A DNA stretch of 64,000 nucleotides from an uncultured Pelagibacteraceae bacterium (lineage in GTDB: Bacteria; Pseudomonadota; Alphaproteobacteria; Pelagibacterales; Pelagibacteraceae). This document shows, one piece after another, positions 12,748 through 34,789 of this stretch. How positions within the stretch are numbered: position 1 is the first letter of the stretch; each line of letters opens with the position of its first letter. A program made the position numbers and the translations under genes. A model generated the notes under the pieces. The model was not told the origin of the DNA, made no database searches, and saw nothing but the letters and a program-made list of their open reading frames with translations. The stretch lies in assembly GCA_902566705.1 (NCBI GenBank), contig CACFJT010000004.1:1-64000 (forward strand). The letters run 5' to 3'.

Positions 12748-13761
12748 TTAAAACTTAATTTTTATTTGTTTTCTTAGTTTTAATGAGCTTGAAGCAGCAT
12801 TAGCTATAATTAATGCTCTTCTTCCATCTTCAAAACTTGATATGGGGGCCTTTTTAGTTTTTGAATAAAAAGCTAATTCGTCAAGTTGAAGTCTGTAAGC
12901 ATCAACATATCTATCTATAAAAAAATTTAAAAGCGGTTTTCTCTGCGATGTATTATTTTTTGTAAAAATTTCTGTTTCATTTTCACTTTTATTTCCAGAT
13001 ATTAACATTCCTTTTGAGCCAAACAATTCAACTCTCTGATCATATCCAAAGCTACAGTGTCTTGAATTTGTAATTATACATTGTACACCTTTTTTTGATT
13101 TTAAAAGACATGAGGCTAATTCATAATCTTTAATTTTATCAAATCTTTTATCTGAAATATTACTAGCTGTAGTAAAAATATTTTCTATCTCATCTTTTTC
13201 TAAATAAAATCTAAGTAAGTCAAAATCATGAATCATCATGTCTTTGAATATACCTCCAGAAATTTTTAAATAATTTAATGAGGGTGGTGAAGGATCTCTG
13301 CTAGTGATAATTATTTTTTCAAGTCTTCCAATCTTTCCTTTAATCAGTTCTTGTTTAATTGAATTATGTCCTGGATCATACCTTCTATTAAAACCTAATT
13401 GTATTTTAGGTTGATACTTTTTAATTTCTCTTAAACATTTATTAACTTTATGAATGTTTAAATCTAAAGGTTTTTCACAAAAGACTATTTTTTTGAATTT
13501 TACAGCTTCTTTTATAAATTTAATATGAGTAGAGGTACTAGATGCAATAAATATTAAATCTATATTTCTGTCTCTAAAAGCTTTTTCGGTATTATTAATA
13601 TTAATTGTATCAAATTTTTTTGAAAATTTTTTGGCTAACTCTTTATTGATATCAAAAGTATATTTTAAATAAAAACTTTTATGGTTAATTAAGTTTTCAG
13701 CATGCATTTGACCTATTCTACCTAGACCAAATAACGCTACGTTTATTTGATTTTTACCCAT
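12748..13761 (-). CDS. Gfo/Idh/MocA oxidoreductase, inositol 2-dehydrogenase-like
   Basis: LFGLGRIGQMHAENL, FCEKPLDL, LGFNRRYDP, GGIFKDMMIHDFDLLRF. Confidence 0.9.
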   Translation of the reverse strand: MGKNQINVALFGLGRIGQMHAENLINHKSFYLKYTFDINKELAKKFSKKFDTININNTEKAFRDRNIDLIFIASSTSTHIKFIKEAVKFKKIVFCEKPLDLNIHKVNKCLREIKKYQPKIQLGFNRRYDPGHNSIKQELIKGKIGRLEKIIITSRDPSPPSLNYLKISGGIFKDMMIHDFDLLRFYLEKDEIENIFTTASNISDKRFDKIKDYELASCLLKSKKGVQCIITNSRHCSFGYDQRVELFGSKGMLISGNKSENETEIFTKNNTSQRKPLLNFFIDRYVDAYRLQLDELAFYSKTKKAPISSFEDGRRALIIANAASSSLKLRKQIKIKF

Positions 13762-14891
13762 TTTTTACTTTTTGACGAAACCTTGCACGCACTAATAAAT
13801 TTCGCTGTTTCTAAACCCTCATCTTCATTTGGATAAAAGTATCTTTTTTTTGTTTTGTTTTTCAAAGAGTCTGCAAACTCTTTATAAATATTCGCAAACG
13901 CATCAAGATACCCTTCAGGATGACCAAATTTTATTCTAGAGAATTGCTTTGAAAATTCTGAATTATGAAATCCTCTTTCTAATAATTTTACTGCACCTTT
14001 TTCTGGATTTAATTTAAGATAATTTGGATCATTTTGAACCCACTCTAAACTACCTTTAGAACCAAATACTCTAATTCTTAAACCATAAACGCCACCTTTG
14101 GCCATTACACTTGTCCAAAACATTCCTTTTGCACCATTGTTAAAATTGATCATAACCTGCGCATTATCATCCATTTTAATTTTTTTTGATATTTGTTTAA
14201 TATCTGCAAAAACTGTTTGTCCCTTCAAACCCGAAATATAAGAGGCTAAATGGTACGCATGAGTTCCAATTTCATTTAAAACAGCTGATGCCCCAACTAT
14301 TTTATTATCAATTTTCCATTTAAGTTTTCTTTTTACATTTTTTGAATTAATTTTTGTTCCACCAGACCAATCTTGAATATATTCAACATTAACATATTCA
14401 ACTTTACCAATTTTACCCTTTTCAACTAATTTTTTTGCTTCTCTCACCATTGGATAAGCAGAATAATTATGAGTTAGCGCATATTTTATTTTTTTATTTT
14501 TTTTTATTGATTTGAAAAGTTTTTTTGCTTGATCTAAATTTCCTGCAAAAGGTTTATCAGAAATTATATTTACATTTTTTGAAATGAATTTTTCAGCAAT
14601 AATTTGATGACTAGATGGAGGTGTCATTATTGCAACCACATCAATTCCATCTTTTCTCTTAGCTTCCTTCTCAGCCATTTCTTTATAATTTGAGTAACAT
14701 CTATCTGATGAAATACCCATACTCTTTCCAAACTTAGTAGAAATTTTTACACTTCTTGAAAAAACACCTGCAACTAATTCGTATTGATCATCAAATCTAG
14801 ATGAGATTCTATGAACATGACCAATCCAAGACCCAGGACCACCCCCAACAATTCCTAAACTTAATTTTTTAGTTTTATTTGATTTAAACAT
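13743..14891 (-). CDS. Gfo/Idh/MocA oxidoreductase; start preferred at 14891 (MFKSNKTKKLS) rather than track 14969
   Basis: GIVGGGPGSWIGHVHR, SDKPFAGNL, LTHNYSAYPMVREAK; the longer ORF would overlap the divergent iolE-like gene. Confidence 0.87.
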   Translation of the reverse strand: MFKSNKTKKLSLGIVGGGPGSWIGHVHRISSRFDDQYELVAGVFSRSVKISTKFGKSMGISSDRCYSNYKEMAEKEAKRKDGIDVVAIMTPPSSHQIIAEKFISKNVNIISDKPFAGNLDQAKKLFKSIKKNKKIKYALTHNYSAYPMVREAKKLVEKGKIGKVEYVNVEYIQDWSGGTKINSKNVKRKLKWKIDNKIVGASAVLNEIGTHAYHLASYISGLKGQTVFADIKQISKKIKMDDNAQVMINFNNGAKGMFWTSVMAKGGVYGLRIRVFGSKGSLEWVQNDPNYLKLNPEKGAVKLLERGFHNSEFSKQFSRIKFGHPEGYLDAFANIYKEFADSLKNKTKKRYFYPNEDEGLETAKFISACKVSSKSKKWVKIK

Positions 14892-14919
14892 TGAATATAT
14901 CTTAGCAAAAAAAATATTT

Positions 14920-15822
14920 ATGTCAGTAAAATTAGGAATAGCACCAATAGCATGGAGTAATGACGACATGCCAGAACTTGGTGGTGATACACCTTTGGAA
15001 CAATGTTTGTTAGAAGCAAGTCAGGCAGGATTTATAGGTATAGAGTCTGGTGGAAAGTTTCCAAAGAATTCAGAGGAATTAATTCCAAAATTAAATGAGT
15101 TTAAACTAAATCTTTGTTCTGGTTGGTATGGAGCAAATTTAAGAAAAAATACATTAGATGAGGAAAAAAAGTTTATACATGATCAGCTAAAATTGTTTAA
15201 AGATTGTAACGCACCTTGCATTGTTTTTGCTGAAGTTTCAGGATCAATTCAAGGAGATCCATATAAAAAACTTTCGAACAGACCAAAAATGGATATAGAA
15301 GAATCTAAAAATTATTATAAAAAAATTTCTGAGATGGGTAAATATTTACAAGATGAAGGTATGCCACTTGCTTATCATCACCACATGGGGACAGTTATAG
15401 AAACTGAGGAAGATACTACAAGATTACTTGAGAACACTGATGATAGTGTAAAACTTACTTTAGATACTGGTCACATGCTCTTTGCTCAAGGCAATTCTCT
15501 GAAAATATTAAAAAATTTTAGTGAAAGAGTTATTCATATACATTGCAAGGATATTAGAAAAAATGTTTTAGATAAATCATTAAAAGAAGACTTAAGTTTT
15601 AGAGATGCATTTTTAGAGGGTGCTTTTACAGTACCTGGAGATGGCTGTATTGATTACAAACCTTTATTTGATGCCTTGAAAGAAAAAAATTATTCAGGTT
15701 GGTTGGTAGTTGAGGCAGAACAAGACCCAGCAAAAGCAAATCCTTTTGAATATGCAAAGATTGGTTATAAATATTTAACTGAGACCTTAAATAAAAGTAA
15801 CATTGAGATCTACAAAAATTAA
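14920..15822 (+). CDS. IolE-like sugar phosphate isomerase/epimerase (myo-inosose-2 dehydratase family)
   Basis: LGIAPIAWSNDDMPELGGDTPLEQCLLEASQAGF, CSGWYGANL, AYHHHMGT, TLDTGHMLFA. Confidence 0.88.
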   Translation: MSVKLGIAPIAWSNDDMPELGGDTPLEQCLLEASQAGFIGIESGGKFPKNSEELIPKLNEFKLNLCSGWYGANLRKNTLDEEKKFIHDQLKLFKDCNAPCIVFAEVSGSIQGDPYKKLSNRPKMDIEESKNYYKKISEMGKYLQDEGMPLAYHHHMGTVIETEEDTTRLLENTDDSVKLTLDTGHMLFAQGNSLKILKNFSERVIHIHCKDIRKNVLDKSLKEDLSFRDAFLEGAFTVPGDGCIDYKPLFDALKEKNYSGWLVVEAEQDPAKANPFEYAKIGYKYLTETLNKSNIEIYKN

Positions 15823-15861
15823 CTATTTGTAAATATTAGTAAGTTTATTATTTCCAGATAT

Positions 15862-16827
15862 TTATAATTTTACAATTTTAGATTTTTCTAATTTTTCCTC
15901 AAAAAAATCAATAATGTTTTGTATTGTTTCTTTTCCCATTCTTGTCATACACTCATCAGTAAAAGCTGCAGTATGAGGACTTAAATAAACTTTTTCATTT
16001 ATAAGAAGTGGATTATTGTCATCAGGTGGTTCTTTTTTAAAAACATCAATACCAGCTCCAAAAATTAAATTTTCATTTAGCGCTTTATCAAGATCTTCTT
16101 CATGAATAATTCCACCTCTTGCTGCATTAACAATTATGCAGGTTTTTTTCATTGTTTTTAATAAATCATAATTAATTAAATTTTCAGTCTTGTCTGTCAA
16201 AGGCATATGTAGCGAAATAACATCCATTGTTTTTACTGCCTCAGCTAGATCCTCTACTTTTTTTCCACCTAATTCTTCAATTTTATCCTTGTCTACAAAT
16301 GGATCATAAACAAAAACATTCATTTCAAAGCCCAGACATCTTTTGATTAACGCTCTTCCTATTCTTCCAAAACCCATTATCAAAAAATTTTTTTTCCATA
16401 TTTCTATTGTTTTTGGTAATTTATTTCTTTCTTTAAAATTTCCCTCTCTTACTGTTTTGTCAAATAAGTCTTTTCTTTTTGCAATATTTAACAAAACAAA
16501 CATTACATGTTCTGCAACTGTAACAGCATTAGCGTTAGCTGTTATTGTTATTTTTATATCTTTTTCTTTAGCTTTTTTTAAATCGATATTGTCATAACCA
16601 ACACCATGTCTTGAAATAATTTTTAATTTTTTTGCTTCCTCAAATGTTTCTCCAGGAAGTTTAGCAGTTCTTATAGATGCACCATCACAATCTTTTAATT
16701 TTGATTTTAAATTTTCTAATGAAGTGTCGTCAGTTACTTCAACATGAAAATTGGGATTGTTATTAATTAATTCCATACCTTTTTCATGGACTTTTTGAAT
16801 AATTAATATCTTTTTTTTATTACTCAT
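15862..16827 (-). CDS. D-isomer-specific 2-hydroxyacid dehydrogenase
   Basis: SRHGVGYDNIDL, MGFGRIGRALIKRCLGFEMNVFVYDP, NAARGGIIHEEDL, LSPHTAAFTDE. Confidence 0.92.
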   Translation of the reverse strand: MSNKKKILIIQKVHEKGMELINNNPNFHVEVTDDTSLENLKSKLKDCDGASIRTAKLPGETFEEAKKLKIISRHGVGYDNIDLKKAKEKDIKITITANANAVTVAEHVMFVLLNIAKRKDLFDKTVREGNFKERNKLPKTIEIWKKNFLIMGFGRIGRALIKRCLGFEMNVFVYDPFVDKDKIEELGGKKVEDLAEAVKTMDVISLHMPLTDKTENLINYDLLKTMKKTCIIVNAARGGIIHEEDLDKALNENLIFGAGIDVFKKEPPDDNNPLLINEKVYLSPHTAAFTDECMTRMGKETIQNIIDFFEEKLEKSKIVKL

Positions 16828-16919
16828 AATTGTATATAAGTTTTTTAGAGAGCAATTTTAATACGAAAATTATTCTATAAAGTAAATTAGTTTTTTGATT
16901 AAATTTATGTTTATTAATA

Positions 16920-17900
16920 TTAAACTAAATTAGATAAGTCCCTTTTATTATTCTTATACGTTGGCAGAGGATACTTAAATGCATGTTTTCCGATACGTCT
17001 TTCTTTAGCATTCTCCCAAAGAGACAACCATTGTTTAAAGTTTTGAACTTTAAGATTTTTTTTATTTTTACTTCGTACATAAAAATTTGGAAGTGGTTCT
17101 CTTCCTGAAGGTTGTCCGGCAACATTATATCTTAAATCAGCACTGATTCTAAAATCATTTGATCTATTTGGTAAAGAGCAGTGTATAGAATGTTTGTGTA
17201 ATAATATTACATCTCCTATGTTAGCTTCTAAATAAATGTGTTTCATACTGTCTAGCAACTCACTATTTTTTAATTCCACCTGTCCTCTATATCCTGATAC
17301 ATGATTTAATAATCCCATTTTATTGATTTTTTTTACTGTAATCATGCATCCATTTTTTTTAGTAGTTTTGGTAAAAGGTATCCACACTGTAACCATATCA
17401 GTTAATTTTTGTCCTCTTGAATTTAAAACTGCAGCGTCTTGATGCCAAGGTGTTCTACCACTTAAGCCGTCAAGAATAGATCCTTTTGGCAATTTTTTTT
17501 CAGGTTGTTTAATTCTAGTATTTTGAACAGGATTAGACATTATTTCTTTACCTAAAATTTTTTCTACAACATCTAAAATTTTTTCATTAGTAATTAAGTT
17601 CCATAACGATTGAGTGGCGAAATAATCACTGTCTTGTTTTACATGGTCTCTAGGTAATCTTGTATTAAAATATTGATCCAGATCATAAATATTAAGTTTT
17701 GATATATATGAATATTTTCTTTTAAAATTCATGTTAAAAACTTTTTTCACCTCATTTTTTTTTACATATTTTTGAATGAGACAATCCATTACAAATTCCA
17801 TATCATTAAGGACTGGTTTTAAGTCTCTTTTAAAATTAAGTATATTTCTAATAATTAAGTACCCATTCTCATATAATTTTTTTTGAAGAGTGTTTTTCAT
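16920..17900 (-). CDS. Phytanoyl-CoA dioxygenase-like 2OG-Fe(II) oxygenase
   Basis: TPWHQDAAVL (HxD), GDVILLHKHSIHCSLPNRSND (distal His), ISADLRY. Confidence 0.8.
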   Translation of the reverse strand: MKNTLQKKLYENGYLIIRNILNFKRDLKPVLNDMEFVMDCLIQKYVKKNEVKKVFNMNFKRKYSYISKLNIYDLDQYFNTRLPRDHVKQDSDYFATQSLWNLITNEKILDVVEKILGKEIMSNPVQNTRIKQPEKKLPKGSILDGLSGRTPWHQDAAVLNSRGQKLTDMVTVWIPFTKTTKKNGCMITVKKINKMGLLNHVSGYRGQVELKNSELLDSMKHIYLEANIGDVILLHKHSIHCSLPNRSNDFRISADLRYNVAGQPSGREPLPNFYVRSKNKKNLKVQNFKQWLSLWENAKERRIGKHAFKYPLPTYKNNKRDLSNLV

Positions 17901-17931
17901 TGTTAAAATTTATTTTATCATTCAAATAATT

Positions 17932-18801
17932 TCAATGGTTTGGTGGTGTGGTTAAATAGTTCACGTCATGGAAAGAGGTTAACATTCTTTTTTTGTTACT
18001 AATTATGTGAGGGTAATATGAAATACCTTTATAATTCCATATAACTGGTTTATTTAAGGCATAACTTCCATAAATAAAAAAACGCTTAGGACAATTTTTC
18101 TCTATAAACCTTTTCACTCCATGATAGGAATTTGGAGTAGACTGAAAAAAAATAACGGTTCCTTTTTTTGGAGTAAAAGACTTGACTACTTCAAGTTCAG
18201 TTATTTTTGGAAATCTTCTAAAACTCTTTCTTAAATTTTTTTTTGCCTTTTTTCTATAAATTGTAAGAGAGCCACCATTCTTTTTTGGTATGTCTGTTAA
18301 ATAAATTAAGAAATTATATAGCCTAGTTATATCATCCCTATGAGGTCTTAATCTATATCCCCCTTTGGATACTGAAAAGTCTATATCTAAATTTACTCTA
18401 GGATTTGTATAATTGTTACCCAACATTTTTTTTAATTCACTAGAATTTAATTTTTTTTTTATAGTGAACTTTTTTGGATTAAAAGATTTTGGATTGTGTA
18501 AATTTACCCATGGTCCATCTTTAAAATTTTTTATAAAAATACTTTCAATCTTTTTATAAAATGACTTACTATTAAATAGTTTTAAAAGTTTTGCAGAGTT
18601 TTTTGAATTTTTGATATATAAATTAAAATTTTTTGAGCCTTTATTTATTCTGCTCCTACCACCCATAATCATATCGTCAAATGATTTTGAGTTGCTTATT
18701 TCTTTAATTAATAAGTTACAGATTTTTTTTGAAACAATGTTATGTCCAACTAAAACAGGAAAGTTACTTTTGATTTTTTTTAATTTATTTGTACTTAGCA
18801 T
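17932..18801 (-). CDS. Putative 2OG-Fe(II) oxygenase
   Basis: YRLRPHRDDITRLYNFLIYLTDIPKKNGGSLTIY (HxD), FFQSTPNSYHGVKRF (distal His). Confidence 0.75.
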   Translation of the reverse strand: MLSTNKLKKIKSNFPVLVGHNIVSKKICNLLIKEISNSKSFDDMIMGGRSRINKGSKNFNLYIKNSKNSAKLLKLFNSKSFYKKIESIFIKNFKDGPWVNLHNPKSFNPKKFTIKKKLNSSELKKMLGNNYTNPRVNLDIDFSVSKGGYRLRPHRDDITRLYNFLIYLTDIPKKNGGSLTIYRKKAKKNLRKSFRRFPKITELEVVKSFTPKKGTVIFFQSTPNSYHGVKRFIEKNCPKRFFIYGSYALNKPVIWNYKGISYYPHIISNKKRMLTSFHDVNYLTTPPNH

Positions 18802-19746
18802 TTAGCTGTACATACCTTCTTTCACTTTAATCATTTTATACATAAGGTCATTTAATGGTGTTTTAATACCATGTTTTTTACCTATTTTTGAAACTGCACC
18901 ACTAATAAAGTCTATTTCAGTTTTTCTCTTGTATTGAATGTCAAAAGCCATTGATGACTTGTTAGTTTGCATCGAATCTACAATTTTATTAAACATAAAT
19001 AAGCATTCATCTTCAGAGACTTTTACACCATCAGCAAGCGCAACTTCTCTAGTTTCTAAAATTATTTCTTTACCTAAACCAAGAGACACTTCATTTGCTT
19101 TGTTATTTACATACAAGTCAGTATGATGAAGATCAAAAATTGCAGATAATGGTCCAATTGCTGTTAAAGCAAAAAGTTTCATCCATTTTCTTTTCTTCAC
19201 ATCTTCTGCAGCAATCATTTCAAGATTATGAGCCGTAAAAGTGTCTGCTATTTCTTTAATTCGATCAGAAATTCCTCCCTCGTACTCACCAATCCAAGAT
19301 GGTAATGAACCATGATTCATTATATGTCCCGGACCTAAAATATTTGAAGCCTGAGTAGTTGTTCCACCAATAACTTTTTCATCGCCGACAATACTTTGAA
19401 TAATTGCTTCATGACCAATGCCATTTTGAAAAGACATGAACACTGTTTTGTCTTTGATAATATTTTTAATACTATTTAATGCTGGCTCTAAAGCTGTAGC
19501 TTTACACATAACAATTATAGCATCTACTTTTTCTATTAAGGATGGGTCTGAAGTGGCTTTAACTTTGATTAATCGATCACCACCATGTCCATCCATTTTC
19601 AAACCATTTTTATTAATTGCATCTACATGTTCTTTCCAAACATCAATTAAAATTACGTTTAAACCTTTTTCAGCAAGTAAACCGCCAAATAAACAACCCA
19701 TTGCTCCTGCACCAAGTACCGCTACTTTCAAATCTTTATTAATCAT
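18802..19746 (-). CDS. 2-dehydropantoate 2-reductase-family protein (PanE/ApbA-like)
   Basis: VLGAGAMGCLFGGLLAEKG; FQNGIGHEAIIQSIVG; IGGTTTQASNILGPGHIMNHG. Confidence 0.9.
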   Translation of the reverse strand: MINKDLKVAVLGAGAMGCLFGGLLAEKGLNVILIDVWKEHVDAINKNGLKMDGHGGDRLIKVKATSDPSLIEKVDAIIVMCKATALEPALNSIKNIIKDKTVFMSFQNGIGHEAIIQSIVGDEKVIGGTTTQASNILGPGHIMNHGSLPSWIGEYEGGISDRIKEIADTFTAHNLEMIAAEDVKKRKWMKLFALTAIGPLSAIFDLHHTDLYVNNKANEVSLGLGKEIILETREVALADGVKVSEDECLFMFNKIVDSMQTNKSSMAFDIQYKRKTEIDFISGAVSKIGKKHGIKTPLNDLMYKMIKVKEGMYS

Positions 19747-19773
19747 CGTTATTTTACTTAAAACTATTTATGT

Positions 19774-19804
19774 ATAGAAATTATATATATTATCTATAGA
19801 CATT
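19774..19804. promoter_or_regulatory. Operator-like element ATAGAAATTATATATATTATCTATAGACATT in divergent panE-like/DUF1907 intergenic region
   Basis: Near-duplicate in the divergent ALDH/iolD intergenic region at 24351-24380. Confidence 0.45.
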
Positions 19805-19834
19805 ATGCAAAATAAATAATAGCTTATTAACATC

Positions 19835-20812
19835 ATGCAATTAAAAATAGAAAAAGGAACTTTTAAAGATTATTCATTAGAAGATATTTCAGAAGCATTA
19901 AGAAAAGGATTGTCTGAAAATTTCAAAAAAGTTGAAGTAGAAGTGGTAGATTGCCCTAATCTTAGAGATTGGGATTGTCCATCAGAAGGAATTAGTGGAA
20001 ATCAAAAAATAATCGATGTTGGTGGAGAGCCTTATATGCATGATCCAAAATTTATTGGTGTGGAATTTGACTATCAAGAAATATCAAAAATGATTGATTC
20101 TGAAAAATCCTATGCTTTAGGGGCCGGATCAGGTGCGATGTCATGTTTAGATGGTCACTGTGGAGAATTAGTTATAAATGAAAATTTAATTACTGATGAG
20201 TCTAAATCAATAATAGCTAGAGTAAGTCCAGACAAAAAATGTATTGTTGAAAAATATTCTGCAAAAAAACACGGTGGACTTGGCAACATTTATTATACAG
20301 ACGGTAAACAAGGAAAAGTTATTAAAATTAAAATCAAAGGTAGAAGTGGAGAACAAGGTTCTTTACCTCAAGCAATTAGGTATTCTTTATCAAAGAATTT
20401 AGAAATTAAAAAAAATGAGCATATGTCTCTCTCAGGTGTATTTAGAGTATTAGATGGAAAAATAAGATCACATGTTCAACCTGATTATAAAGATATAAAA
20501 CATGAGTATTACGACCCAAAACAAATGAAATGTGTGAAAGATTTTCTTCAATTTTATGAACCTGTAGGACCAAAACTACAGTGTTATTCTGTTCTTTGGA
20601 CTGGTGATCCAACTGGAGGTGAATTAAATCTAAGAGAGTCTGGTGAGCATACTCATTTTCATTCTTATAATCACGATAGAGATGCTGGTCATTATCATTT
20701 TGATGTAACACCTAATGAAATAGAATATGAAGGATATTTTAATACTGCAACTGAAGTATACAGAGTAAACAATATTTACAAAGAACTATTAAATAAAAAT
20801 AGTATTGAATAG
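19835..20812 (+). CDS. DUF1907 (C11orf54/PTD012-like) putative zinc-dependent ester/lactone hydrolase
   Basis: Recognised from memory of human C11orf54: VVDCPNL, GGEPY, ALGAGSGA, VEKYS, GKVIKIKIKGRSG, GEHTHFHSYNHDRDAGHYHFDVTPNEIEYEGYF. Confidence 0.85.
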   Translation: MQLKIEKGTFKDYSLEDISEALRKGLSENFKKVEVEVVDCPNLRDWDCPSEGISGNQKIIDVGGEPYMHDPKFIGVEFDYQEISKMIDSEKSYALGAGSGAMSCLDGHCGELVINENLITDESKSIIARVSPDKKCIVEKYSAKKHGGLGNIYYTDGKQGKVIKIKIKGRSGEQGSLPQAIRYSLSKNLEIKKNEHMSLSGVFRVLDGKIRSHVQPDYKDIKHEYYDPKQMKCVKDFLQFYEPVGPKLQCYSVLWTGDPTGGELNLRESGEHTHFHSYNHDRDAGHYHFDVTPNEIEYEGYFNTATEVYRVNNIYKELLNKNSIE

Positions 20813-20839
20813 AAAACTGAATGTGTTTAAATTTATTTA

Positions 20840-21256
20840 ATGAAAAGACAGTTTAAATATCCAAAACACTTCGAAGAACAAAAAAAAATTCCAAAACTAA
20901 CTCAAAAAAGAATTCAACTAGCAGAAATATCACTTGGAGATTTTGAAGGAAGATTAGCTAATGAATTATTGAATTGGTTTTCCTTAACACCACAACATTG
21001 GATAATGTTACACATGGTTATGCTGGCTTATTACAAAAATAAATCAATTACTAAAAATCAATTACTTAAAGTGATTGAAAAATCATATTTGACCTCAAAC
21101 GTTTATATCGATACAGCAATTAAAAAAGGTTACTTTAGAATCATTAGAAACGAGAAAGACAAAAGATCCATTTTTATTTTACCTTCTGTAATTACCATTA
21201 AAACCTTTGAGGAGTTTATTGATAGAAGAGATATTCTTTATAAAGGAATTAAATGA
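20840..21256 (+). CDS. MarR-like winged-helix protein, putative regulator
   Basis: LTPQHWIMLHMVMLAYY..SITKNQLLKVIEKSYLTSNVYIDTAIKKGYFRIIRNEKDKRSIFILPS resembles wHTH plus wing. Confidence 0.55.
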   Translation: MKRQFKYPKHFEEQKKIPKLTQKRIQLAEISLGDFEGRLANELLNWFSLTPQHWIMLHMVMLAYYKNKSITKNQLLKVIEKSYLTSNVYIDTAIKKGYFRIIRNEKDKRSIFILPSVITIKTFEEFIDRRDILYKGIK

Positions 21257-22068
21257 AAAATATCTATACATGGGCTGCTAAACCAGCAAAGCGAACGTTA
21301 ACTGTTCGGGACTTAAAAGCAGCTAAGGGAAAAAGAAAATTTACACAAGTTACTGCGAACAGCATTGAAGAAGCAGAGGCAGCAGAAAAGGCAGGCTTTG
21401 ATATGATTATATCAAACGCAAAAAATATTATTCCTGTAAGAGAAGGTTCAAAAAATTTATTTTTAACGGCAGCTTTAGTATTAAATGAGTTTGTGACTAA
21501 AGATGATATTATGCGTGGGGCTTTTAAAGCTTTAGAAAATGGTGCAGATGCGGTTATGACTCCTAGAAGTATGGATATAGTTGAAATGTTATCTAAGGAA
21601 GACGTTCCAGTAATGGGTCATCTAGGTTTAGTACCAAGAAAATCTACTTGGGTAGGTGGGTTGAGAGCTATAGGTAAAACTGCTGATGAAGCGTATGAAC
21701 TTTTTCTAAAGTTTAAAAGATTAGAAGATGCTGGTGCTTTTTCTGCAGAGTGTGAGGTTATACCTGAAAACGTAATGGGCGAAATTTCAAAGCGTACAGA
21801 TATTGTAACTGTTTCGTTAGGATCAGGTAAAAATGCTGATGTGATGTATTTATTTATGGAAGATATTTGTGGAGACACCGAAAATCCTCCAAGACATTCA
21901 AAAGCATATGGAAATTTATTAGGACTAAAAAATGAGATAAAATTAGAAAGAGTAAAAGCCCTTAAAGCATTTAAAAAAGATTCAATGACAGGTAAATTTC
22001 CGGGTAAGAAACAATCTTCAAACTTAGAAAAAACAAAATTTGAAGAATTTTTAAATCTGTTGGATTAG
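21253..22068 (+). CDS. Divergent PanB-superfamily (ketopantoate hydroxymethyltransferase-like) protein
   Basis: DVPVMGHLGLVPRKSTWVGGLRAIGKT..EAYELFLKFKRLEDAGAFSAECEVIP aligns by eye with PanB; N-terminal catalytic motifs altered. Confidence 0.7.
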   Translation: MKNIYTWAAKPAKRTLTVRDLKAAKGKRKFTQVTANSIEEAEAAEKAGFDMIISNAKNIIPVREGSKNLFLTAALVLNEFVTKDDIMRGAFKALENGADAVMTPRSMDIVEMLSKEDVPVMGHLGLVPRKSTWVGGLRAIGKTADEAYELFLKFKRLEDAGAFSAECEVIPENVMGEISKRTDIVTVSLGSGKNADVMYLFMEDICGDTENPPRHSKAYGNLLGLKNEIKLERVKALKAFKKDSMTGKFPGKKQSSNLEKTKFEEFLNLLD

Positions 22069-22859
22069 TAAGTTGAGGAAACCTCTTTTTTACTGTCTAA
22101 ACCTTTTATTTCTTCTACGATAGATTTTCCTTTAGAATTTAAAATTCTTAAATCAGACGCAATTGTTACAAAATTAAATCCTTTTTTTATCATTTTTGAT
22201 GAGTACTCAGTTGTACCACAATGTATACCCGCAAAAATATTGTTTTTTTTAGCGTGCTCTAAAATTTTTAAAATTTCCGAATAAGCTTTTGTATTTTCTG
22301 GCCTGTCAAAACCTGGTTTTTCATTTAACGCTAAACTTAAATCTGCTGGTCCAATATAGATACCATCTAACCCAGGTGTTAACATAATTTCATCAAGCTT
22401 TTCTAGAGACTCTTTAGTTTCTATCATTGCTAATTTCAATATCTCATCATTAGCATGCTCAGCATAATCAACACCTCCATATATTAACCCTCTAATTGGA
22501 CCAAAACTTCTGTAGCCTTCAGCGGGATACATGCACGCTTGTACAAAATGTTCAGTTTGTTTTCTATTACTTACCATTGGGCAGATAATTCCATAGCAAC
22601 CTGCATCTAAAATTTTCATGATTTGACCAGGTTCATTCCAATTTACTCTAGCTAAAGGAGTTACATTTGTTGAAGATATTGTTTGAAGCATAGGGAGCGC
22701 ATTACTGTAATCTATTAATCCATGTTGCATATCAATTGTTAGAGAGTCCCAACCTTGACCAGACATTCCTTCGATTGATACAGTGCTAGGTATTGCACAC
22801 CAACCATTAATTACAGTTTTTCCTTCCTTCATCATTTGTTTGATCTTATTTTTTCTCAT
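22065..22859 (-). CDS. HpcH/HpaI-family 2-oxo acid aldolase
   Basis: DSLTIDMQHGLIDY, PLARVNWNEPGQIMKILDAGCYGIICPMV, GLDGIYIGPADLSLAL. Confidence 0.92.
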   Translation of the reverse strand: MRKNKIKQMMKEGKTVINGWCAIPSTVSIEGMSGQGWDSLTIDMQHGLIDYSNALPMLQTISSTNVTPLARVNWNEPGQIMKILDAGCYGIICPMVSNRKQTEHFVQACMYPAEGYRSFGPIRGLIYGGVDYAEHANDEILKLAMIETKESLEKLDEIMLTPGLDGIYIGPADLSLALNEKPGFDRPENTKAYSEILKILEHAKKNNIFAGIHCGTTEYSSKMIKKGFNFVTIASDLRILNSKGKSIVEEIKGLDSKKEVSSTY

Positions 22860-22862
22860 TTT

Positions 22863-24305
22863 TTAGATTTTTAATCCCATGTGGGTGTATTTCACATTCA
22901 GATAATCTTTTATTGCACCTGAACCACCTTCGCGACCATAACCAGTTTGTTTTATACCTCCAAAAGGAGCTTCAGCAATAGCAACAACACCTGTATTAAC
23001 AGCAACACAACCAGATTCTAGTTTTTCAGATCCAATATGAGCTTTATCCATAGAATTAGTGTAAAGGTAACTACATAAACCTAAGTCATTATCATTTGCT
23101 CTTTCAATAACTTCATCAAAAGTTTTAAAAGTTAAAATTGGAACTAATGGACCGAAAGGCTCTTCTTTCATTACTGTAAAATTATCTTTTACGTCATCAA
23201 ATACAGTTGGTTCATAATAATATCCTTTATTGAAGCCAGGGGGTCTTTGTCCACCCATCAAAACTTTGGCTCCTTCTTTTTTAGTTGTTTCAACTAATTT
23301 TTCTATTTCTTCCAATCTCTTAGCAGTAGTTAATGGTCCTAAATCTATACCTTCGTCCATACCATTTCCAATTTTTAATTTTTTTGCTCTTTTTACAAAA
23401 GCATTAACAAACTCATCTTTTCTATTTTCTTGAATATAAAATCTATTGGGAGAAATACAGACTTGACCATTATTTCTAAATTTACCGGTTATTGCTATAT
23501 CAGCTACTTTGTTCATATCCACATCTTCACATACAATAAATGGTGAATGTCCACTTAGTTCCATAGTAACTCTCTGAACTTTATCAGCAGCTTTTTTTAA
23601 AATAATTTTTCCAACTCTAGTTGACCCAGTAACTGAAACTTTTTTAATTATATCAGATTCCATTAACTCGTTGGAAACTTCTGCAGGATCACCTGATAAA
23701 AGATTTACTACACCATCTGGTACACCAGCTTCCTTACAGATATTTACTAATTCCATTACAGCTCCAGGAGTAATTACATCTGGCTTACATATAACAGAAC
23801 ATCCAGCAGCTAAAGAAGTTGAAATTTTTCTTGAGGCTAAAACTATTGGAAAATTCCAAGGAACTAGAGCAGCTACCACTCCTACTGGTTGATAATAAAC
23901 ATGTACTCTTGTATCTGGAAATCTACTTTGTTGAGTTTGACCATAAATTCTTTTTGTTTCTTCGGCATTCCATTCAAAAATATCAGCACCGCCACCAACT
24001 TCACCAACAGCTTCTGTAAGTGGTTTTCCTACTTCTAATGTTAACCATTTTGCAAGCACGTCCTTTTTTTTTCTCATTAGATCTGCAATTTTTCTCAGCA
24101 CATAAGCTCTCTGCCATGGCGCAGTATTTTTCCAAACCTCCAAACCTTTTTCTGCTGACTTTAACGCTTTTTGTACCTCAATAGTTGAAGCTTTCGATGC
24201 TTTTCCAATTACTTCTTCAGTTGCAGGATTGATTACTTCATAAGTTTCTTTTTTTTCGGCTTGTTGCCATTTCCCATCAATGAATTGTCCAAATTTTTCG
24301 TACAT
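22863..24305 (-). CDS. NAD(P)-dependent aldehyde dehydrogenase
   Basis: GVVAALVPWNFPI, VTGSTRVGKII, VTMELSGHSPFIV, NNGQVCISPNRF, EEPFGPLVPI. Confidence 0.96.
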   Translation of the reverse strand: MYEKFGQFIDGKWQQAEKKETYEVINPATEEVIGKASKASTIEVQKALKSAEKGLEVWKNTAPWQRAYVLRKIADLMRKKKDVLAKWLTLEVGKPLTEAVGEVGGGADIFEWNAEETKRIYGQTQQSRFPDTRVHVYYQPVGVVAALVPWNFPIVLASRKISTSLAAGCSVICKPDVITPGAVMELVNICKEAGVPDGVVNLLSGDPAEVSNELMESDIIKKVSVTGSTRVGKIILKKAADKVQRVTMELSGHSPFIVCEDVDMNKVADIAITGKFRNNGQVCISPNRFYIQENRKDEFVNAFVKRAKKLKIGNGMDEGIDLGPLTTAKRLEEIEKLVETTKKEGAKVLMGGQRPPGFNKGYYYEPTVFDDVKDNFTVMKEEPFGPLVPILTFKTFDEVIERANDNDLGLCSYLYTNSMDKAHIGSEKLESGCVAVNTGVVAIAEAPFGGIKQTGYGREGGSGAIKDYLNVKYTHMGLKI

Positions 24306-24350
24306 AGATTTTATTTTTAAGTTTACTTAATTAGGTTTTTTAATTTATAA

Positions 24351-24380
24351 ATAGAATTATATATAAAGACTATACATATT
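24351..24380. promoter_or_regulatory. Operator-like element ATAGAATTATATATAAAGACTATACATATT in divergent ALDH/iolD-like intergenic region
   Basis: Near-duplicate of 19774-19804. Confidence 0.45.
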
Positions 24381-24398
24381 AAAAGACAAACATACTTT

Positions 24399-26243
24399 AT
24401 GAAAAAAATTACTATTACATGCGCTCATGCAATCGTAAAATATTTGATAGCTCAAAAAATATTAATTAATGGTAAAAAAGAACCGTTATTTCCAGGTGTC
24501 TTTGGAATTTTTGGACATGGAAATGTTGCTTGTTTAGGTCAAGCACTAGAGGAAAATCAAAAAGAACTGCCAACATATAGAGGGCACCATGAACAAAATA
24601 TGGCTCTTACAGGAATTGGTTATACTAGGGCTAAAAGAAGACAACAAATTTTTGTAGCGACATCTTCTGTTGGGCCTGGTGCAACTAATATGGTCACAGC
24701 TGCAGCAGTTGCCATGAGTAACAGGTTGCCAATTTTATTTTTACCTGGAGACACTTATGCAAACAGAATGCCAGATCCAGTATTGCAACAAGTTGAGCAA
24801 TTTAATAATCCAGGAATAACAGCTAATGATGCGTTTAAACCAGTTACAAGATATTTTGATCGAATAACTAGACCAGAACAGATTATTCAATCATTCCCAG
24901 CAGCAGTTCATACAATGTTAGATCCTGCAGACTGTGGTCCAGCATGTATTGCTTTAAGCCAAGATGTACAAGGTCAAGCCTTTGATTATCCAGAAGAGTT
25001 TTTTAAAGAAAGAGTACATGCAATTAGAAGACCAAGACCAGATGAATTTCAAATTAAAGAGGCAGCAGAAAAAATTAAGTCATCTAAAAATCCAATTATA
25101 ATTTCAGGTGGTGGGGTTTTTTACTCAGATGCAATGGAGGAGTTGAGTCAGTTCGCGATCAAACATAATATACCAGTTACGCAAACTGTAATGGGATATT
25201 CTACAATGAAAAGAGACCATTCTCATTTTGCAGGTCAAATTGGTGGTTTAGGTGGAAAAAATACAAATACTTTAGCAAAAGAAACAGATTTAGCAATCGC
25301 AGTTGGAACCAAACTTGCAGATTTTACAACTGGATCATGGGCAAATTTTGAAAACAAAAATTTTAAACTAGTTTCAATAAATGTATCAAGATTCGATGCT
25401 AACAAACATTTAGCGCAAGCTGTTATTGGAGATGCTAAAGTTTCATTAACAGAGCTTTCACAAGTATTAGGTAATTGGAAAGCTGGAGAAGAATGGAATA
25501 AAAAATCTCAAATTGAACTCAAATCATGGAATGATCATATAGATAAAGAGAGTGCGCCAACAAATCAAGAAGTTCCAAGTTATGTCCAGGTAATTGGTGC
25601 AATTTATAGAAACTCTGACCCAACAGATATAGCAGTTACCGCAGCAGGAGGCTTAGTTGGTGAAGTTGTTCAAGTTTGGAGACCTAGAGAATTAAATACT
25701 CATGAAACAGAGTGGGGTTTTAGTTGTATGAGTTATGAAATTTCAGGAGCACTTGGAATAAAAATGGCAAATCCAGATAAAGAAGTAATTTCTTTTGTAG
25801 GAGATGGCTCTTATCTTTTAAATAACACAGATATTTATTCATCAGTTATTACAAAAAATAAATTAATAATTATAGTTTGTGATAACGGTGGGTTTGCAGT
25901 TATCAATCGACTTCAATTATTTAAAGGTGGTAAAGAATATAATAACTTATTAAAGAGCTCTAATACTCCTGGATTAGTTGATGTTGATTTTGCAAAACAC
26001 GCAGAAAGTATGGGAGCTAAATCAGAACATGTTAATTCAATTTCAGATCTTGAAGCTGCATTTAAAAGAGCAAAAGCATCTGATGTAACATACGTTATTT
26101 CAATTAAAACTCATGCCTATAAGTGGGTTGAGGGTTCTGCTTTTTGGGACAGTCCAACACTTGAAATTCCTAAAACTAAAGAAAATGAAGAGGCTTTAAA
26201 ACTTTATAAAGAAGGAAAAGATAAACAAAGACAAGGCGTATAA
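24399..26243 (+). CDS. iolD: IolD-like ThDP-dependent trihydroxycyclohexane-1,2-dione hydrolase
   Basis: GVFGIFGHGNVACLGQAL, YRGHHEQNMA, GPGATNMVTAAAVAMSNRLPILFLPGDTYANR, VGDGSYLLNNTDIYSSV. Confidence 0.93.
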   Translation: MKKITITCAHAIVKYLIAQKILINGKKEPLFPGVFGIFGHGNVACLGQALEENQKELPTYRGHHEQNMALTGIGYTRAKRRQQIFVATSSVGPGATNMVTAAAVAMSNRLPILFLPGDTYANRMPDPVLQQVEQFNNPGITANDAFKPVTRYFDRITRPEQIIQSFPAAVHTMLDPADCGPACIALSQDVQGQAFDYPEEFFKERVHAIRRPRPDEFQIKEAAEKIKSSKNPIIISGGGVFYSDAMEELSQFAIKHNIPVTQTVMGYSTMKRDHSHFAGQIGGLGGKNTNTLAKETDLAIAVGTKLADFTTGSWANFENKNFKLVSINVSRFDANKHLAQAVIGDAKVSLTELSQVLGNWKAGEEWNKKSQIELKSWNDHIDKESAPTNQEVPSYVQVIGAIYRNSDPTDIAVTAAGGLVGEVVQVWRPRELNTHETEWGFSCMSYEISGALGIKMANPDKEVISFVGDGSYLLNNTDIYSSVITKNKLIIIVCDNGGFAVINRLQLFKGGKEYNNLLKSSNTPGLVDVDFAKHAESMGAKSEHVNSISDLEAAFKRAKASDVTYVISIKTHAYKWVEGSAFWDSPTLEIPKTKENEEALKLYKEGKDKQRQGV

Positions 26244-26249
26244 ATCTTT

Positions 26250-27404
26250 ATGAATAAAATTTTTAAGGTCGGTCTTATAGGCTGTGGTCACATCGCCGAG
26301 ACATACTTTAGAGGGCAACAATATTTTAATAATTTTAAAATAATTGCCTGTGCAGATATTGATCAAAAAGCAGCCGATAAATGTGCAAAATTATACAATA
26401 TTAAATCTAAAACAGTTTCAGAAATCTTAAAAGATAATGAAATAGAAGTTATTTTAAATTTAACAATTCCACAATCTCATTATTCAGTATCAAAAAAAGT
26501 TTTGAACTCAGGTAAACATGTTTATTCAGAAAAACCACTAGCAACTTATTTTGCAAAAGGTAAAGAACTAGTCTCTCTAGCAAAAAAAAATAAACTTTAT
26601 CTTGGAAACGCTCCAGATACATTTTTAGGTGGAGGAATTCAAAAAGCTAGAGAATTAATTGATTCAGATTTGATTGGAGAGATTAAACTTGGTAATGCAA
26701 TTTTCGCATTTCCTGGAGTAGAGTCTTTTCATCCAAAACCTGAGTCTTGGTATAAAAAAGAAGGAGGTCCAGTAATCGATATGGGACCATATTTTTTTAC
26801 AACATTGGTAAATTTACTTGGACCTGCAAAACAAGTTCAAGGAAGAACATTAACTGCTTTTAAAAAGAGAATTTATGGAGTGGGACCTAAAAAAAACAAA
26901 TCATTTAAGGTGGAAACACCTACAACATATTTAGCGACAATCCAATTTCACAGTGGTGCTATAATTCAAGTAACACTCTCATTTGATGTAATTAATCATC
27001 AAAGAAACCATATGGAGCTTTATGGCACAAAAGGATCGATTATTGTTCCAGATCCCAATATGTTTGGGGGTTCTGTTTTTATTTCTGTTACAGAAGGTGG
27101 AAAATGGGGTGAACATAAAACAGACAAGATGCATTTAGGAAAAATAAACATAACCTCATCTAGTGGAAGATCAAATGAAGCTGCTACAAATGCAAACTAT
27201 CGGAGTGTTGGTTTATCTGAAATGTTATATTCTATTCAAAAAAACAAAAAACATAGGTGTTCAGGTGATTTATCTTTACATGTATTAGATATAATCGAGT
27301 CAACCATGAGGGCAGCTAACACAGGGACTCCTCAAAAAATAGAAACAATATGTGATAGACCAAAAAAATTTACTGAAGAAGAAGTAAAAAAAATTTTAAT
27401 TTAG
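26250..27404 (+). CDS. Gfo/Idh/MocA oxidoreductase
   Basis: GLIGCGHIAETYFRG, YSEKPLATYF, GGPVIDMGPYFFTTLVNLLGP. Confidence 0.93.
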   Translation: MNKIFKVGLIGCGHIAETYFRGQQYFNNFKIIACADIDQKAADKCAKLYNIKSKTVSEILKDNEIEVILNLTIPQSHYSVSKKVLNSGKHVYSEKPLATYFAKGKELVSLAKKNKLYLGNAPDTFLGGGIQKARELIDSDLIGEIKLGNAIFAFPGVESFHPKPESWYKKEGGPVIDMGPYFFTTLVNLLGPAKQVQGRTLTAFKKRIYGVGPKKNKSFKVETPTTYLATIQFHSGAIIQVTLSFDVINHQRNHMELYGTKGSIIVPDPNMFGGSVFISVTEGGKWGEHKTDKMHLGKINITSSSGRSNEAATNANYRSVGLSEMLYSIQKNKKHRCSGDLSLHVLDIIESTMRAANTGTPQKIETICDRPKKFTEEEVKKILI

Positions 27405-28449: not shown

Positions 28450-29199
28450 ATGTCATCAACTACTAATCCACTACTAGAAGCAAAAGGAATAACAAAATAT
28501 TTTGGAACCATAACAGCATTGGAGAATGTAAACTTAAAAGTTCACGCGGGAGAATGCTTAGGTGTTGTTGGAGATAATGGTGCTGGGAAATCAACTTTGA
28601 TGAAAGTATTATCTGGTCTTTATAAACCTAGTGCAGGCTCATTATTCTTTCAGGGTAAAGAGGAAATTTTAGAAAGTCCAAGAGACTCTCAAAACTTAGG
28701 ATTAGAAATGGTTTATCAAGATCTCGCATTAGCAGGTAACTTACCAATAGGAGAAAATATATTTCTTGGAAGAGAACCCACTAAAAATTTAGGATTTATA
28801 AAATTATTAGACTTTAATAAAATAAAAGAATTAACAAATGCTCACCTAGATAAATTAAAAATAAATGTAAAAAGTGCAGATCAAAAAGTGGAGGAACTAT
28901 CAGGTGGTCAAAGACAAGCTGTTGCAATAGCCAGATCTACAGCTTTTAATGCTAAAGTAGTAATTATGGATGAACCAACTGCTGCATTAGCAATCAAAGA
29001 AGTGGGTAAAGTATTAGATCTGATTAATAGTTTAAAAAAAACAGGTGTTGGAGTGATTGTAATAAGTCATAGAATGGATGATATATTTACAGTATGTGAC
29101 AGAGTAATGGCTTTGTTTCAGGGAACAAATTTTGCAGAAGCAAGTCTATCAAATACTTCTAGAGATGAAGTGATAGGTTGGATTATGGGAAAAAAATAA
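28450..29199 (+). CDS. Sugar ABC transporter ATPase, single NBD (FrcA-like)
   Basis: GDNGAGKSTLMKVLSGL, EELSGGQRQAVAIARS, VIMDEPTAAL; 249 aa. Confidence 0.95.
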   Translation: MSSTTNPLLEAKGITKYFGTITALENVNLKVHAGECLGVVGDNGAGKSTLMKVLSGLYKPSAGSLFFQGKEEILESPRDSQNLGLEMVYQDLALAGNLPIGENIFLGREPTKNLGFIKLLDFNKIKELTNAHLDKLKINVKSADQKVEELSGGQRQAVAIARSTAFNAKVVIMDEPTAALAIKEVGKVLDLINSLKKTGVGVIVISHRMDDIFTVCDRVMALFQGTNFAEASLSNTSRDEVIGWIMGKK

Positions 29200-29201
29200 A
29201 C

Positions 29202-30215
29202 ATGGAAGATAAAGATAAAAAAATTGTAAGTCTTCATTTGAAACTAATGCCATATTTAGAAAAATATGGAATTCTTCTTTTATTAGTAATTATGATTTTG
29301 GTTATGCACATATTACAACCAGATGTTTTTTTATCTTGGAGAAATGTAACTAACGTTTTTAAACAAATATCTTGGCAGTCAATGTTAGCTTTGGGAGTAT
29401 TTATGGTAATTGTGACTGCTGGAATAGATCTTTCGGTCGGTTCAATCATGATGTTGTCATTAATGATTTTAGCTGTTGTTGCTAAAGCTGGAGCGCCTTG
29501 GTACATAGTGGTTATTACACCTCTTATTGCAGGGTTTTTATGTGGTCTATTTAATGGCCTAGGTATCACCTTACTTCGCATGCCACATCCTTTTATAATG
29601 ACTTTGGGTACACTTTATATATTTAGAGGAACTGGAAACTTAATTTCTGGAGGAACTCCTATAAGTGGTTTTACAGATGAAGTTAGGTATCTTGGCCATG
29701 GAAGAATTGATCTTCAATGGTTAGGATTAGAAAAATCGCAATACCTTCCTGTAAGTTTAGTATTAATTGCAATTGTATACATAATTTTTTGGATTTTCTT
29801 AAATCATAGCAAAACTGGAAAATGGATTTATGCAATTGGAGGAAATCCTAATGCTGCTAGAGCATCTGGAATAAATGTTAACAAAATTTTAGTTATAGTT
29901 TATTCATTATGTGGATTCTTATCTGGTATTGGTGCTTTAATTTTAGCAGGAAGAACTGACTCAGGCTATCCTAACGCTGGACTTCAATCTGAACTTGATG
30001 CGATCGCCGCATGTATAATTGGAGGAGCAAGTTTTTTTGGTGGAAGAGGTACAGTTTTAGGAGTATTTGCAGGTGTAATGATTATGGGAATTCTAAGAAA
30101 TGGTTTAAATTTGATGGATGTAAGTTCTTTTTGGCAACAAGTTCTTATAGGTTCTATAATAGTTCTTGCCGTTTACATAGACGTATTAAGAAGAGATTTG
30201 GGTACTAGAAAGTAA
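29202..30215 (+). CDS. Sugar ABC transporter permease (RbsC/FrcB-like); ATG at 29202 preferred
   Basis: VTAGIDLSVGSIMMLS, IYAIGGNPNAARASGINV, IAACIIGGASFFGGRGTVLG. Confidence 0.95.
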   Translation: MEDKDKKIVSLHLKLMPYLEKYGILLLLVIMILVMHILQPDVFLSWRNVTNVFKQISWQSMLALGVFMVIVTAGIDLSVGSIMMLSLMILAVVAKAGAPWYIVVITPLIAGFLCGLFNGLGITLLRMPHPFIMTLGTLYIFRGTGNLISGGTPISGFTDEVRYLGHGRIDLQWLGLEKSQYLPVSLVLIAIVYIIFWIFLNHSKTGKWIYAIGGNPNAARASGINVNKILVIVYSLCGFLSGIGALILAGRTDSGYPNAGLQSELDAIAACIIGGASFFGGRGTVLGVFAGVMIMGILRNGLNLMDVSSFWQQVLIGSIIVLAVYIDVLRRDLGTRK

Positions 30216-30334
30216 ATTATACGTAATTACACTCTTTAGTTGTATTCAATATTGTCTTATCACCTTTATAAATAGTTGAACTCTTCTCATTTTTTTTATT
30301 TAATTAATTTTTTAAATAACAATAGGGGAAATAA

Positions 30335-31267
30335 ATGAAAAACTTAACAAGAAAAATTGTTGTTTTTTTTACAGCAATTTTTTTATCAATCAGTTTAGGT
30401 TCAGTTTCTTTTGCTGATGGACATGGTAAAAAAATTCTATTCAGCATTAAAGGTCCTGGATCAGGAAACCCTTTTTGGGCATCTGTTACAAAAGGTGCTG
30501 AAGAGGAAGCTAAAAAACTAGGTGTAAAATTAATTTTAATTGCACCTCCTCAAGAAGGAGATGTTCAAGCACAGATTAACCAAGTAGAAGACCAACTAGC
30601 AAAAGGTGTGGATGCTTTAGCACTTGCACCAGGAGATCCAAATGCGTTTGCTCCGATCGTTGATGATGCTATTAAAAGTGGAGTTCCAGTAGTATTCGTT
30701 GATACGAAAGGAATAAACGAAGGAGTAACTTTTATTGGAACAAATAACATGAATGGTGCAGAGTTAGCTGCAAAATTTATTTGTGACAAAACTCCTAAAG
30801 GTTCTGATGTTGCAATTTTAACTGGTATTGAGTCACAATCTACAGCGTTGTTAAGAAGAGATGGTGCAATAAAAGGTTTTAAAAATTGTGGATTAAACAT
30901 TGTAGCAACTCAAACTGCTGAGTGGGATACTGCTAAAGGTAGATCTGTAACTGAGTCAATTATTTTAAAAAATCCAAACATCAAAGCAATATTTGCTTCA
31001 AATGATAATATGGGTTTAGGTGCTATGCAGGCTCTTAAAGATGCGGACATGAATGATGTGGTTGTGGTAGGATTTGATGCTACGCCAGATGCAGCTACAA
31101 GTATCTTAAAAGGAGAAATGACAGCAACAATTGCTCAGTTTTCTTATAATATGGGTGCATATGGAGTTAAATATGCTCTTGAATTAGCTAATGGCGGAAG
31201 TATTGATCCAAATATCGATACAGGAACACAATTAGTAACAAAAGAAAACGCTAACGATTTTAAATAA
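30335..31267 (+). CDS. Periplasmic sugar-binding protein (RbsB/IbpA-like)
   Basis: Signal peptide; peripla_BP_4-type sequence KGPGSGNPFWASVTKGAEEEAKKLGV...VVVGFDATPDAATSILKGEMTATIAQ. Confidence 0.95.
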   Translation: MKNLTRKIVVFFTAIFLSISLGSVSFADGHGKKILFSIKGPGSGNPFWASVTKGAEEEAKKLGVKLILIAPPQEGDVQAQINQVEDQLAKGVDALALAPGDPNAFAPIVDDAIKSGVPVVFVDTKGINEGVTFIGTNNMNGAELAAKFICDKTPKGSDVAILTGIESQSTALLRRDGAIKGFKNCGLNIVATQTAEWDTAKGRSVTESIILKNPNIKAIFASNDNMGLGAMQALKDADMNDVVVVGFDATPDAATSILKGEMTATIAQFSYNMGAYGVKYALELANGGSIDPNIDTGTQLVTKENANDFK

Positions 31268-31290
31268 TCATTAGATAATAAAATATTAAA

Positions 31291-31322
31291 AAGGGTGGAA
31301 TTTAATTCCACCCTTTTTTTTT
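31291..31322 (+). terminator. Rho-independent terminator after sugar-binding protein gene
   Basis: GGGTGGAA-TTTAA-TTCCACCC followed by 9 T. Confidence 0.93.
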
Positions 31323-31340
31323 ATGTAATATAATATTTTA

Positions 31341-31802
31341 ATGTTAATAAATATTAATCCAGTTTTAAGCCCTGAATTGTTATTTCATCTAAGATCTATG
31401 GGTCATGGAGAAAAATTAATTTTAGCTGATGCGAATTTTCCTGCTAATACTTCTAATGATAAAGTAATAAGATTAGATGGAGTTAATATTAAGGAAGCAG
31501 CCTCAGCAATCCTTTCAGTTTTTCCTCTAGATAGTTTTATTGTTACACAAGGTGGATCTCCAGCTTTGAGAATGGAAGTGGATGATAAACCAGACGAATT
31601 AACTGAGACGCATAAAGAATTTATTGATGTAGTTAAAAATGTTTCTGGAGAAAATTGGAGGGTTGGTTCAATAACAAGGCAAAATTTTTATGAAGAAGCA
31701 AAAAAAGCATACTGTATAGTTACAACTACTGATGCTAGACCTTTTGGATGTTTTGTTTTAACAAAAGGAGTAATTTTACCAGATGGCAAGGTTTGGTCAT
31801 AA
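31341..31802 (+). CDS. RbsD/FucU-family sugar mutarotase
   Basis: INPVLSPELLFHLRSMGHGEKLILADANFPA. Confidence 0.92.
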   Translation: MLININPVLSPELLFHLRSMGHGEKLILADANFPANTSNDKVIRLDGVNIKEAASAILSVFPLDSFIVTQGGSPALRMEVDDKPDELTETHKEFIDVVKNVSGENWRVGSITRQNFYEEAKKAYCIVTTTDARPFGCFVLTKGVILPDGKVWS

Positions 31803-31812
31803 AAGTTAATAA

Positions 31813-34766: not shown

Positions 34767-34789
34767 TATAATTAAAAGTACATTTGCAT

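Follow-up and report, generated by a model that had tools for sequence, protein, structure and literature searches.

The 64,000-nucleotide stretch of DNA analysed here (hereafter the window), from contig CACFJT010000004.1 of an uncultured Pelagibacteraceae genome, carries on its forward strand an open reading frame (19835-20812, ATG to TAG) that encodes a protein of 325 amino acids. Residues 22-311 of this protein align with positions 1-285 of the 285-position PF08925 (DUF1907) profile (E = 8.5e-61, 206.3 bits, against a gathering score of 25 bits), and a phmmer search of the PDB matched residues 10-313 to human PTD012/C11orf54 (PDB 1xcr, chain 1xcr_A; E = 6.6e-40), with approximately 39% identity over 284 residues aligned with MAFFT. 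The positive profile search, spanning the full length of the family model, and the match to the human structure bear out the assignment to the DUF1907/C11orf54 family made in a preliminary description of the locus, and the motifs named there, together with the HTHFH...GHYHFD cluster, are found in the reading frame. The SAR11 gene is hence a bacterial member of an already known family, real and well conserved, in a new bacterial context.

The metal-site histidines of the SAR11 protein (H272, H274 and H286, and also H288) correspond to SEQRES positions 267, 269, 279 and 281 of the human protein and are kept in at least 97% of 77 distinct SAR11 sequences; they are likewise invariant in a 23-sequence alignment. 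We take zinc in human PTD012 to be held by a three-His site of the form HxH...H. The conservation of the His cluster among homologs that the preliminary description had anticipated was thus found on both sides, in human and SAR11 copies alike, and comparison of the 77 SAR11 sequences with the human segment yielded 91 positions at which the human residue is shared and conservation within SAR11 reaches 97% or more. The dN/dS ratio between SAR11 copies ranges from 0.045 to 0.14, indicating that the gene is under purifying selection. An AlphaFold2 model built from 23 SAR11 sequences was poor (pLDDT 49) and was set aside as a source of ligand geometry; a Foldseek search with this low-confidence model returned 1xcr as its sole significant match (E = 9e-17, rmsd 13.6), without recovering acetolactate decarboxylase. 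Given its sequence homology to 1xcr (E = 6.6e-40), the SAR11 protein would be expected to adopt the PTD012 fold.

The distribution of the gene is narrow. The source genome, a SAR11 genome estimated as 88% complete, harbors a single copy, and DUF1907 was detected in 5 of the 61 genomes of a search among relatives, the source genome included. Outside SAR11, no copies were detected in 386 other alphaproteobacterial genomes, drawn evenly at the class level, or in 398 other genomes of the same phylum, drawn evenly at the phylum level. A GTDB scan returned 164 DUF1907 coding stretches, and the 80 kept of these all belong to the Pelagibacteraceae. No DUF1907 copies were detected by tblastn in plasmid and phage collections, and the protein had no match in PHROG or PADLOC.

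Divergently transcribed from the DUF1907 gene lies a gene for a dehydrogenase of the ApbA/ketopantoate reductase family (18802-19746, reverse strand), followed on the same strand by genes encoding a 2OG-Fe(II) oxygenase superfamily protein (17932-18801) and a PhyH-type 2-oxoglutarate dioxygenase (16920-17900). Downstream of DUF1907, on the forward strand, are genes for a small HTH regulator (20840-21256), with a weak SarA/Rot-MarR-like match below curated cut-offs, and for a PanB-like TIM-barrel protein (21253-22068) that scores 89 bits against the PanB equivalog cut-off of 208. Across SAR11 loci with enough flanking sequence, a few of which perhaps come from the same genome and among which close relatives are not independent, the ApbA gene adjoins DUF1907 in 76 of 76 cases, the 2OG oxygenase gene is present in 66 of 67, the PhyH gene in 64 of 64, the HTH gene in 80 of 81 and the PanB-like gene in 69 of 77. 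The PanB-like gene, missing from the other 8 of these 77 loci, is dispensable. Genes for an HpcH/HpaI-type aldolase (71/71 loci), an aldehyde dehydrogenase (ALDH; 67/67) and IolD (64/64) also accompany DUF1907. The ApbA and HpcH counts bear out the repeated association with genes for dehydrogenases and aldolases that was foreseen at the outset. Proteins of the same PanB-like subfamily, which scores below the cut-off for canonical PanB, also occur in other Alphaproteobacteria that lack DUF1907; at least two of their genes adjoin one for a PhyH-type dioxygenase.

In DUF1907-bearing genomes, these six genes form a block (PhyH-2OG-ApbA / DUF1907-HTH-PanB-like) between hpcH and the gene for a D-2-hydroxyacid dehydrogenase (2HADH1; 15862-16827, reverse strand), whereas in SAR11 genomes that encode IolD and lack the block the order is iolG-(GfoB)-iolE-2HADH1-HpcH-ALDH/iolD-GfoC, with hpcH and 2HADH1 contiguous. 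Since DUF1907-free relatives keep the inositol genes contiguous, DUF1907 is part of a discrete cassette within an inositol locus. A different block, encoding a sugar ABC transporter, a TIM-barrel protein and a Gfo-type protein, lies beside the cassette in some genomes (upstream of the PhyH gene in four loci and others) and separates it from iolE in at least one genome, suggesting a variable site.

The genes surrounding the cassette had been described as a sugar-acid catabolic cluster. The sugar/polyol-type dehydrogenases and the HpcH/HpaI aldolase of that description are present, but the region is more aptly called an inositol catabolic locus, with three genes passing their NCBIfam equivalog cut-offs: iolG, for inositol 2-dehydrogenase (12748-13761, reverse strand; 358.7 bits, cut-off 355), iolE, for inosose dehydratase (14920-15822, forward strand; 405 bits, cut-off 290), and iolD, for trihydroxycyclohexane-1,2-dione hydrolase (24399-26243, forward strand; 800 bits, cut-off 715). 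The gene for the HpcH/HpaI-type aldolase (22065-22859, reverse strand), present also in cassette-free relatives, and that for ALDH (22863-24305, reverse strand) lie between the cassette and iolD, a Gfo/Idh/MocA dehydrogenase gene (26250-27404, forward strand) lies downstream of iolD, and almost every DUF1907-bearing genome tested for iolE proved to have it. Like the canonical iol cluster, the SAR11 locus encodes IolG, IolE and IolD; unlike it, it lacks IolB and IolC, carries instead genes for the HpcH aldolase, ALDH and a 2-hydroxyacid dehydrogenase, and in some lineages includes the DUF1907 cassette. IolB (PF04962) was absent from the source genome, from 33 DUF1907-bearing genomes and from 7 more iolD-bearing genomes, and searches for IolC returned nothing above cut-off in 11 genomes, most of the genomes in both cases being incomplete. 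The same composition, in which iolD keeps the HpcH, ALDH and 2-hydroxyacid dehydrogenase genes as neighbors, recurs in other SAR11 inositol loci besides that of the window (12748-26243). A published iol survey demanded three of iolB/C/D/E (PMC9430895); SAR11 loci with only two of these would therefore have gone uncounted.

The 88-bp intergenic region between the ApbA and DUF1907 genes contains an operator-like inverted repeat (19767-19803) with the core TATAGA-N14-TCTATA at 19773-19798. This core occurs once in the window, against a mean of 0.06 in shuffled sequence. Of 85 loci, 83 have the palindrome no more than 130 bp upstream of DUF1907, and it occurs elsewhere just twice in 1.36 Mb. Two loci are exceptions: in one the contig begins within DUF1907 itself, and in the other, G004, the HTH gene is missing, as in no other genome. 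This co-loss, although a single event, suggests that the palindrome is read by the HTH protein. A second, weaker operator-like copy (24344-24381) lies in the divergent ALDH/iolD promoter of the main cassette lineage only. Its alignment score of 20, compared with 13.3 ± 1.6 for shuffled sequences, was reached in 4 of 2000 shuffles, and among 256 AT-rich 93-bp stretches of the window this one ranks first. Neither the cassette-free genomes nor the G004/G005/G031 lineage has this copy. It is plausible that the cassette and the inositol genes are controlled together. In the main cassette lineage the ALDH/iolD promoter itself (24306-24398 in the window) spans 92-93 bp, against 52-57 bp in most others, and the operator-like stretch sits in the extra part.

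The preliminary description had treated the substrate class of the DUF1907 family as an open question, a premise overtaken by recent work. According to a 2025 PNAS commentary (PMC12435205), Malatesta et al. (2025; 10.1073/pnas.2506597122) report human C11orf54 as a beta-keto-L-gulonate (3-dehydro-L-gulonate) decarboxylase (EC 4.1.1.34), an activity also given for it in a 2026 JACS paper (PMC12921845). The commentary also cites acetolactate decarboxylase (4BT4) as a structural match of C11orf54, at 3.0 A over 210 residues, notes that rotifers present DUF1907 fused to 3HCDH dehydrogenases and traces the esterase annotation of the family to hydrolysis of p-nitrophenyl acetate. In our profile comparison, similarity between DUF1907 and acetolactate decarboxylase (PF03306) was not significant (hhalign probability 0.2%, E = 0.36), and the best local alignment, also without a significant score, falls on the His motif, pairing EHTHF..DRDAGHYHFD with YHEHF..DRQGGGHLLD. 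The two proteins are alike in their similar metal motif (HxHF...DRxxGGH..D) and in the zinc-dependent alpha-hydroxy-beta-keto acid chemistry expected of them, but they belong to different Pfam families with no significant sequence or profile relationship here, and the link in fold comes from the literature. Acetolactate, like 3-dehydro-gulonate, is a 2-hydroxy-3-keto acid. From known chemistry, such acids would suit chelation by a three-His zinc site and loss of CO2 via an enediolate.

Taken with the gene context, these data lead us to favor, with some confidence, the reading that the SAR11 protein is a Zn-dependent decarboxylase, a homolog of C11orf54 with a corresponding predicted fold and metal site, that would act on a 2-hydroxy-3-keto (3-dehydro) sugar acid made by its ApbA-family partner. 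In the proposed sequence of events, the ApbA-family dehydrogenase would oxidize the 3-hydroxyl of a sugar acid to give a beta-keto acid; the three-His zinc of the DUF1907 protein would chelate the 2-hydroxyl and 3-keto oxygens of this substrate; and CO2 would be driven off with stabilization of the enediolate, leaving a ketose, which for 3-dehydro-L-gulonate would be L-xylulose. Both genes lie in the cassette, probably under control of the adjacent HTH regulator. Because the cassette is nested in the IolG-IolE-IolD locus, the protein probably acts on an acid derived from inositol or a uronate: 3-dehydro-L-gulonate is the obvious first candidate, and the locus suggests an acid that stems from inositol. 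The invariable adjacency of the ApbA gene parallels the logic of the rotifer DUF1907-3HCDH fusion, and the SAR11 system shares with human C11orf54/PTD012 full-length homology, the metal-site histidines and a putative pairing with a hydroxyacid dehydrogenase. It differs in being bacterial and in its cassette, which includes two 2OG/PhyH oxygenases and an HTH regulator; that its partner is of the ApbA type, unlike the 3HCDH of the rotifer fusions, counts against decarboxylation, as do the non-significant profile match to acetolactate decarboxylase, the poor AlphaFold2 model and the lack of identified genes for providing L-gulonate or utilizing L-xylulose. We found no published assay of a bacterial DUF1907 member.

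A narrower form of this reading, in which SAR11 uses exactly the human substrate and converts 3-dehydro-L-gulonate to L-xylulose in a glucuronate/gulonate-to-pentulose route, has a direct functional precedent in the human enzyme. In animals, inositol also feeds the gulonate pathway through glucuronate, and the SAR11 DUF1907 gene sits in an inositol locus. The product of IolD, however, is 5-deoxy-glucuronate and not glucuronate, and genes by which L-gulonate would be supplied or L-xylulose consumed were not identified: neither a glucuronate reductase nor a 3HCDH-type L-gulonate 3-dehydrogenase, an L-xylulose reductase or a kinase was identified with the cassette. We therefore regard this narrower form as tentative and rather doubtful. 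The ApbA/PanE-family and PanB-like proteins that flank DUF1907 might instead mean that the cassette serves a pathway related to pantoate, or another one not involving sugars, in which DUF1907 would decarboxylate a branched beta-keto acid. The ApbA protein keeps the layout of its family, but the two Asn common to its five best-matching solved homologs, a pair found in solved ketopantoate reductases, are replaced by L194 and G198. This Asn pair binds pantoate in E. coli PanE, and its replacement suggests that ApbA probably acts on a substrate other than ketopantoate. With the PanB-like protein far under the PanB cut-off and not constant at the locus, and with its relatives in other Alphaproteobacteria occurring without DUF1907, some beside PhyH, a pantoate-related role appears improbable.

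The role originally proposed for the protein, that of a Zn-dependent sugar lactonase opening lactones produced by neighboring sugar/polyol dehydrogenases, agrees with the presence of Gfo/Idh/MocA dehydrogenases nearby and with the p-nitrophenyl acetate hydrolysis attributed to human PTD012 (PMC7718763; cited in PMC12435205). The Gfo/Idh/MocA genes, however, belong to the inositol locus and persist in relatives without DUF1907, whereas the constant partner is an ApbA-type (ApbA/6PGDH-superfamily) hydroxyacid dehydrogenase, expected to yield keto acids and not lactones. The protein had no match to known lactonase families in Pfam or NCBIfam, and with the human homolog now reported as a decarboxylase we consider a lactonase very unlikely. 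Effects of human C11orf54 on HIF1A and DNA repair are reported (PMC10241914), and moonlighting roles have been proposed for the human protein. By analogy, the SAR11 protein would have kept the zinc fold while acting in regulation or in another role without catalysis; given the conserved active-site cluster and the mostly enzymatic gene context, we lend this almost no credence. A decarboxylase acting with an ApbA-type dehydrogenase is the best reading of the locus.

Under this reading, the bacterial locus, with its strictly linked dehydrogenase, would lend independent genomic support to a scheme of dehydrogenation followed by decarboxylation in a family whose human member was uncharacterized until 2025, and it offers a tractable place for finding further DUF1907 substrates. 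It also points to an incompletely understood inositol-type carbon route in SAR11, among the most abundant bacterial groups of the ocean. The absence of IolB, and of IolC above cut-off, puts in question the fate of the 5-deoxy-glucuronate formed by IolD. We speculate that ALDH, 2HADH1 and HpcH might provide a route by oxidation to 5-deoxy-glucarate and its 2-keto form and aldol cleavage to hydroxypyruvate and malonate semialdehyde. A possible extension, which we advance with considerable reserve, is that in cassette-bearing lineages this IolB- and IolC-free route would be supplemented by ApbA- and DUF1907-dependent oxidative decarboxylation of an inositol-derived deoxy-uronate or aldarate to a shorter ketose, with one HTH regulator also controlling ALDH/iolD. 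A direct replacement of IolB by DUF1907 was rejected as the main reading, as iolD-bearing relatives without DUF1907 also lack IolB. Adjoining the inositol locus, the window further encodes a ribose-type ABC transporter with a ribokinase and a tripartite tricarboxylate (TctABC) transporter near PdxA (28450-32724 and 33792-36778).
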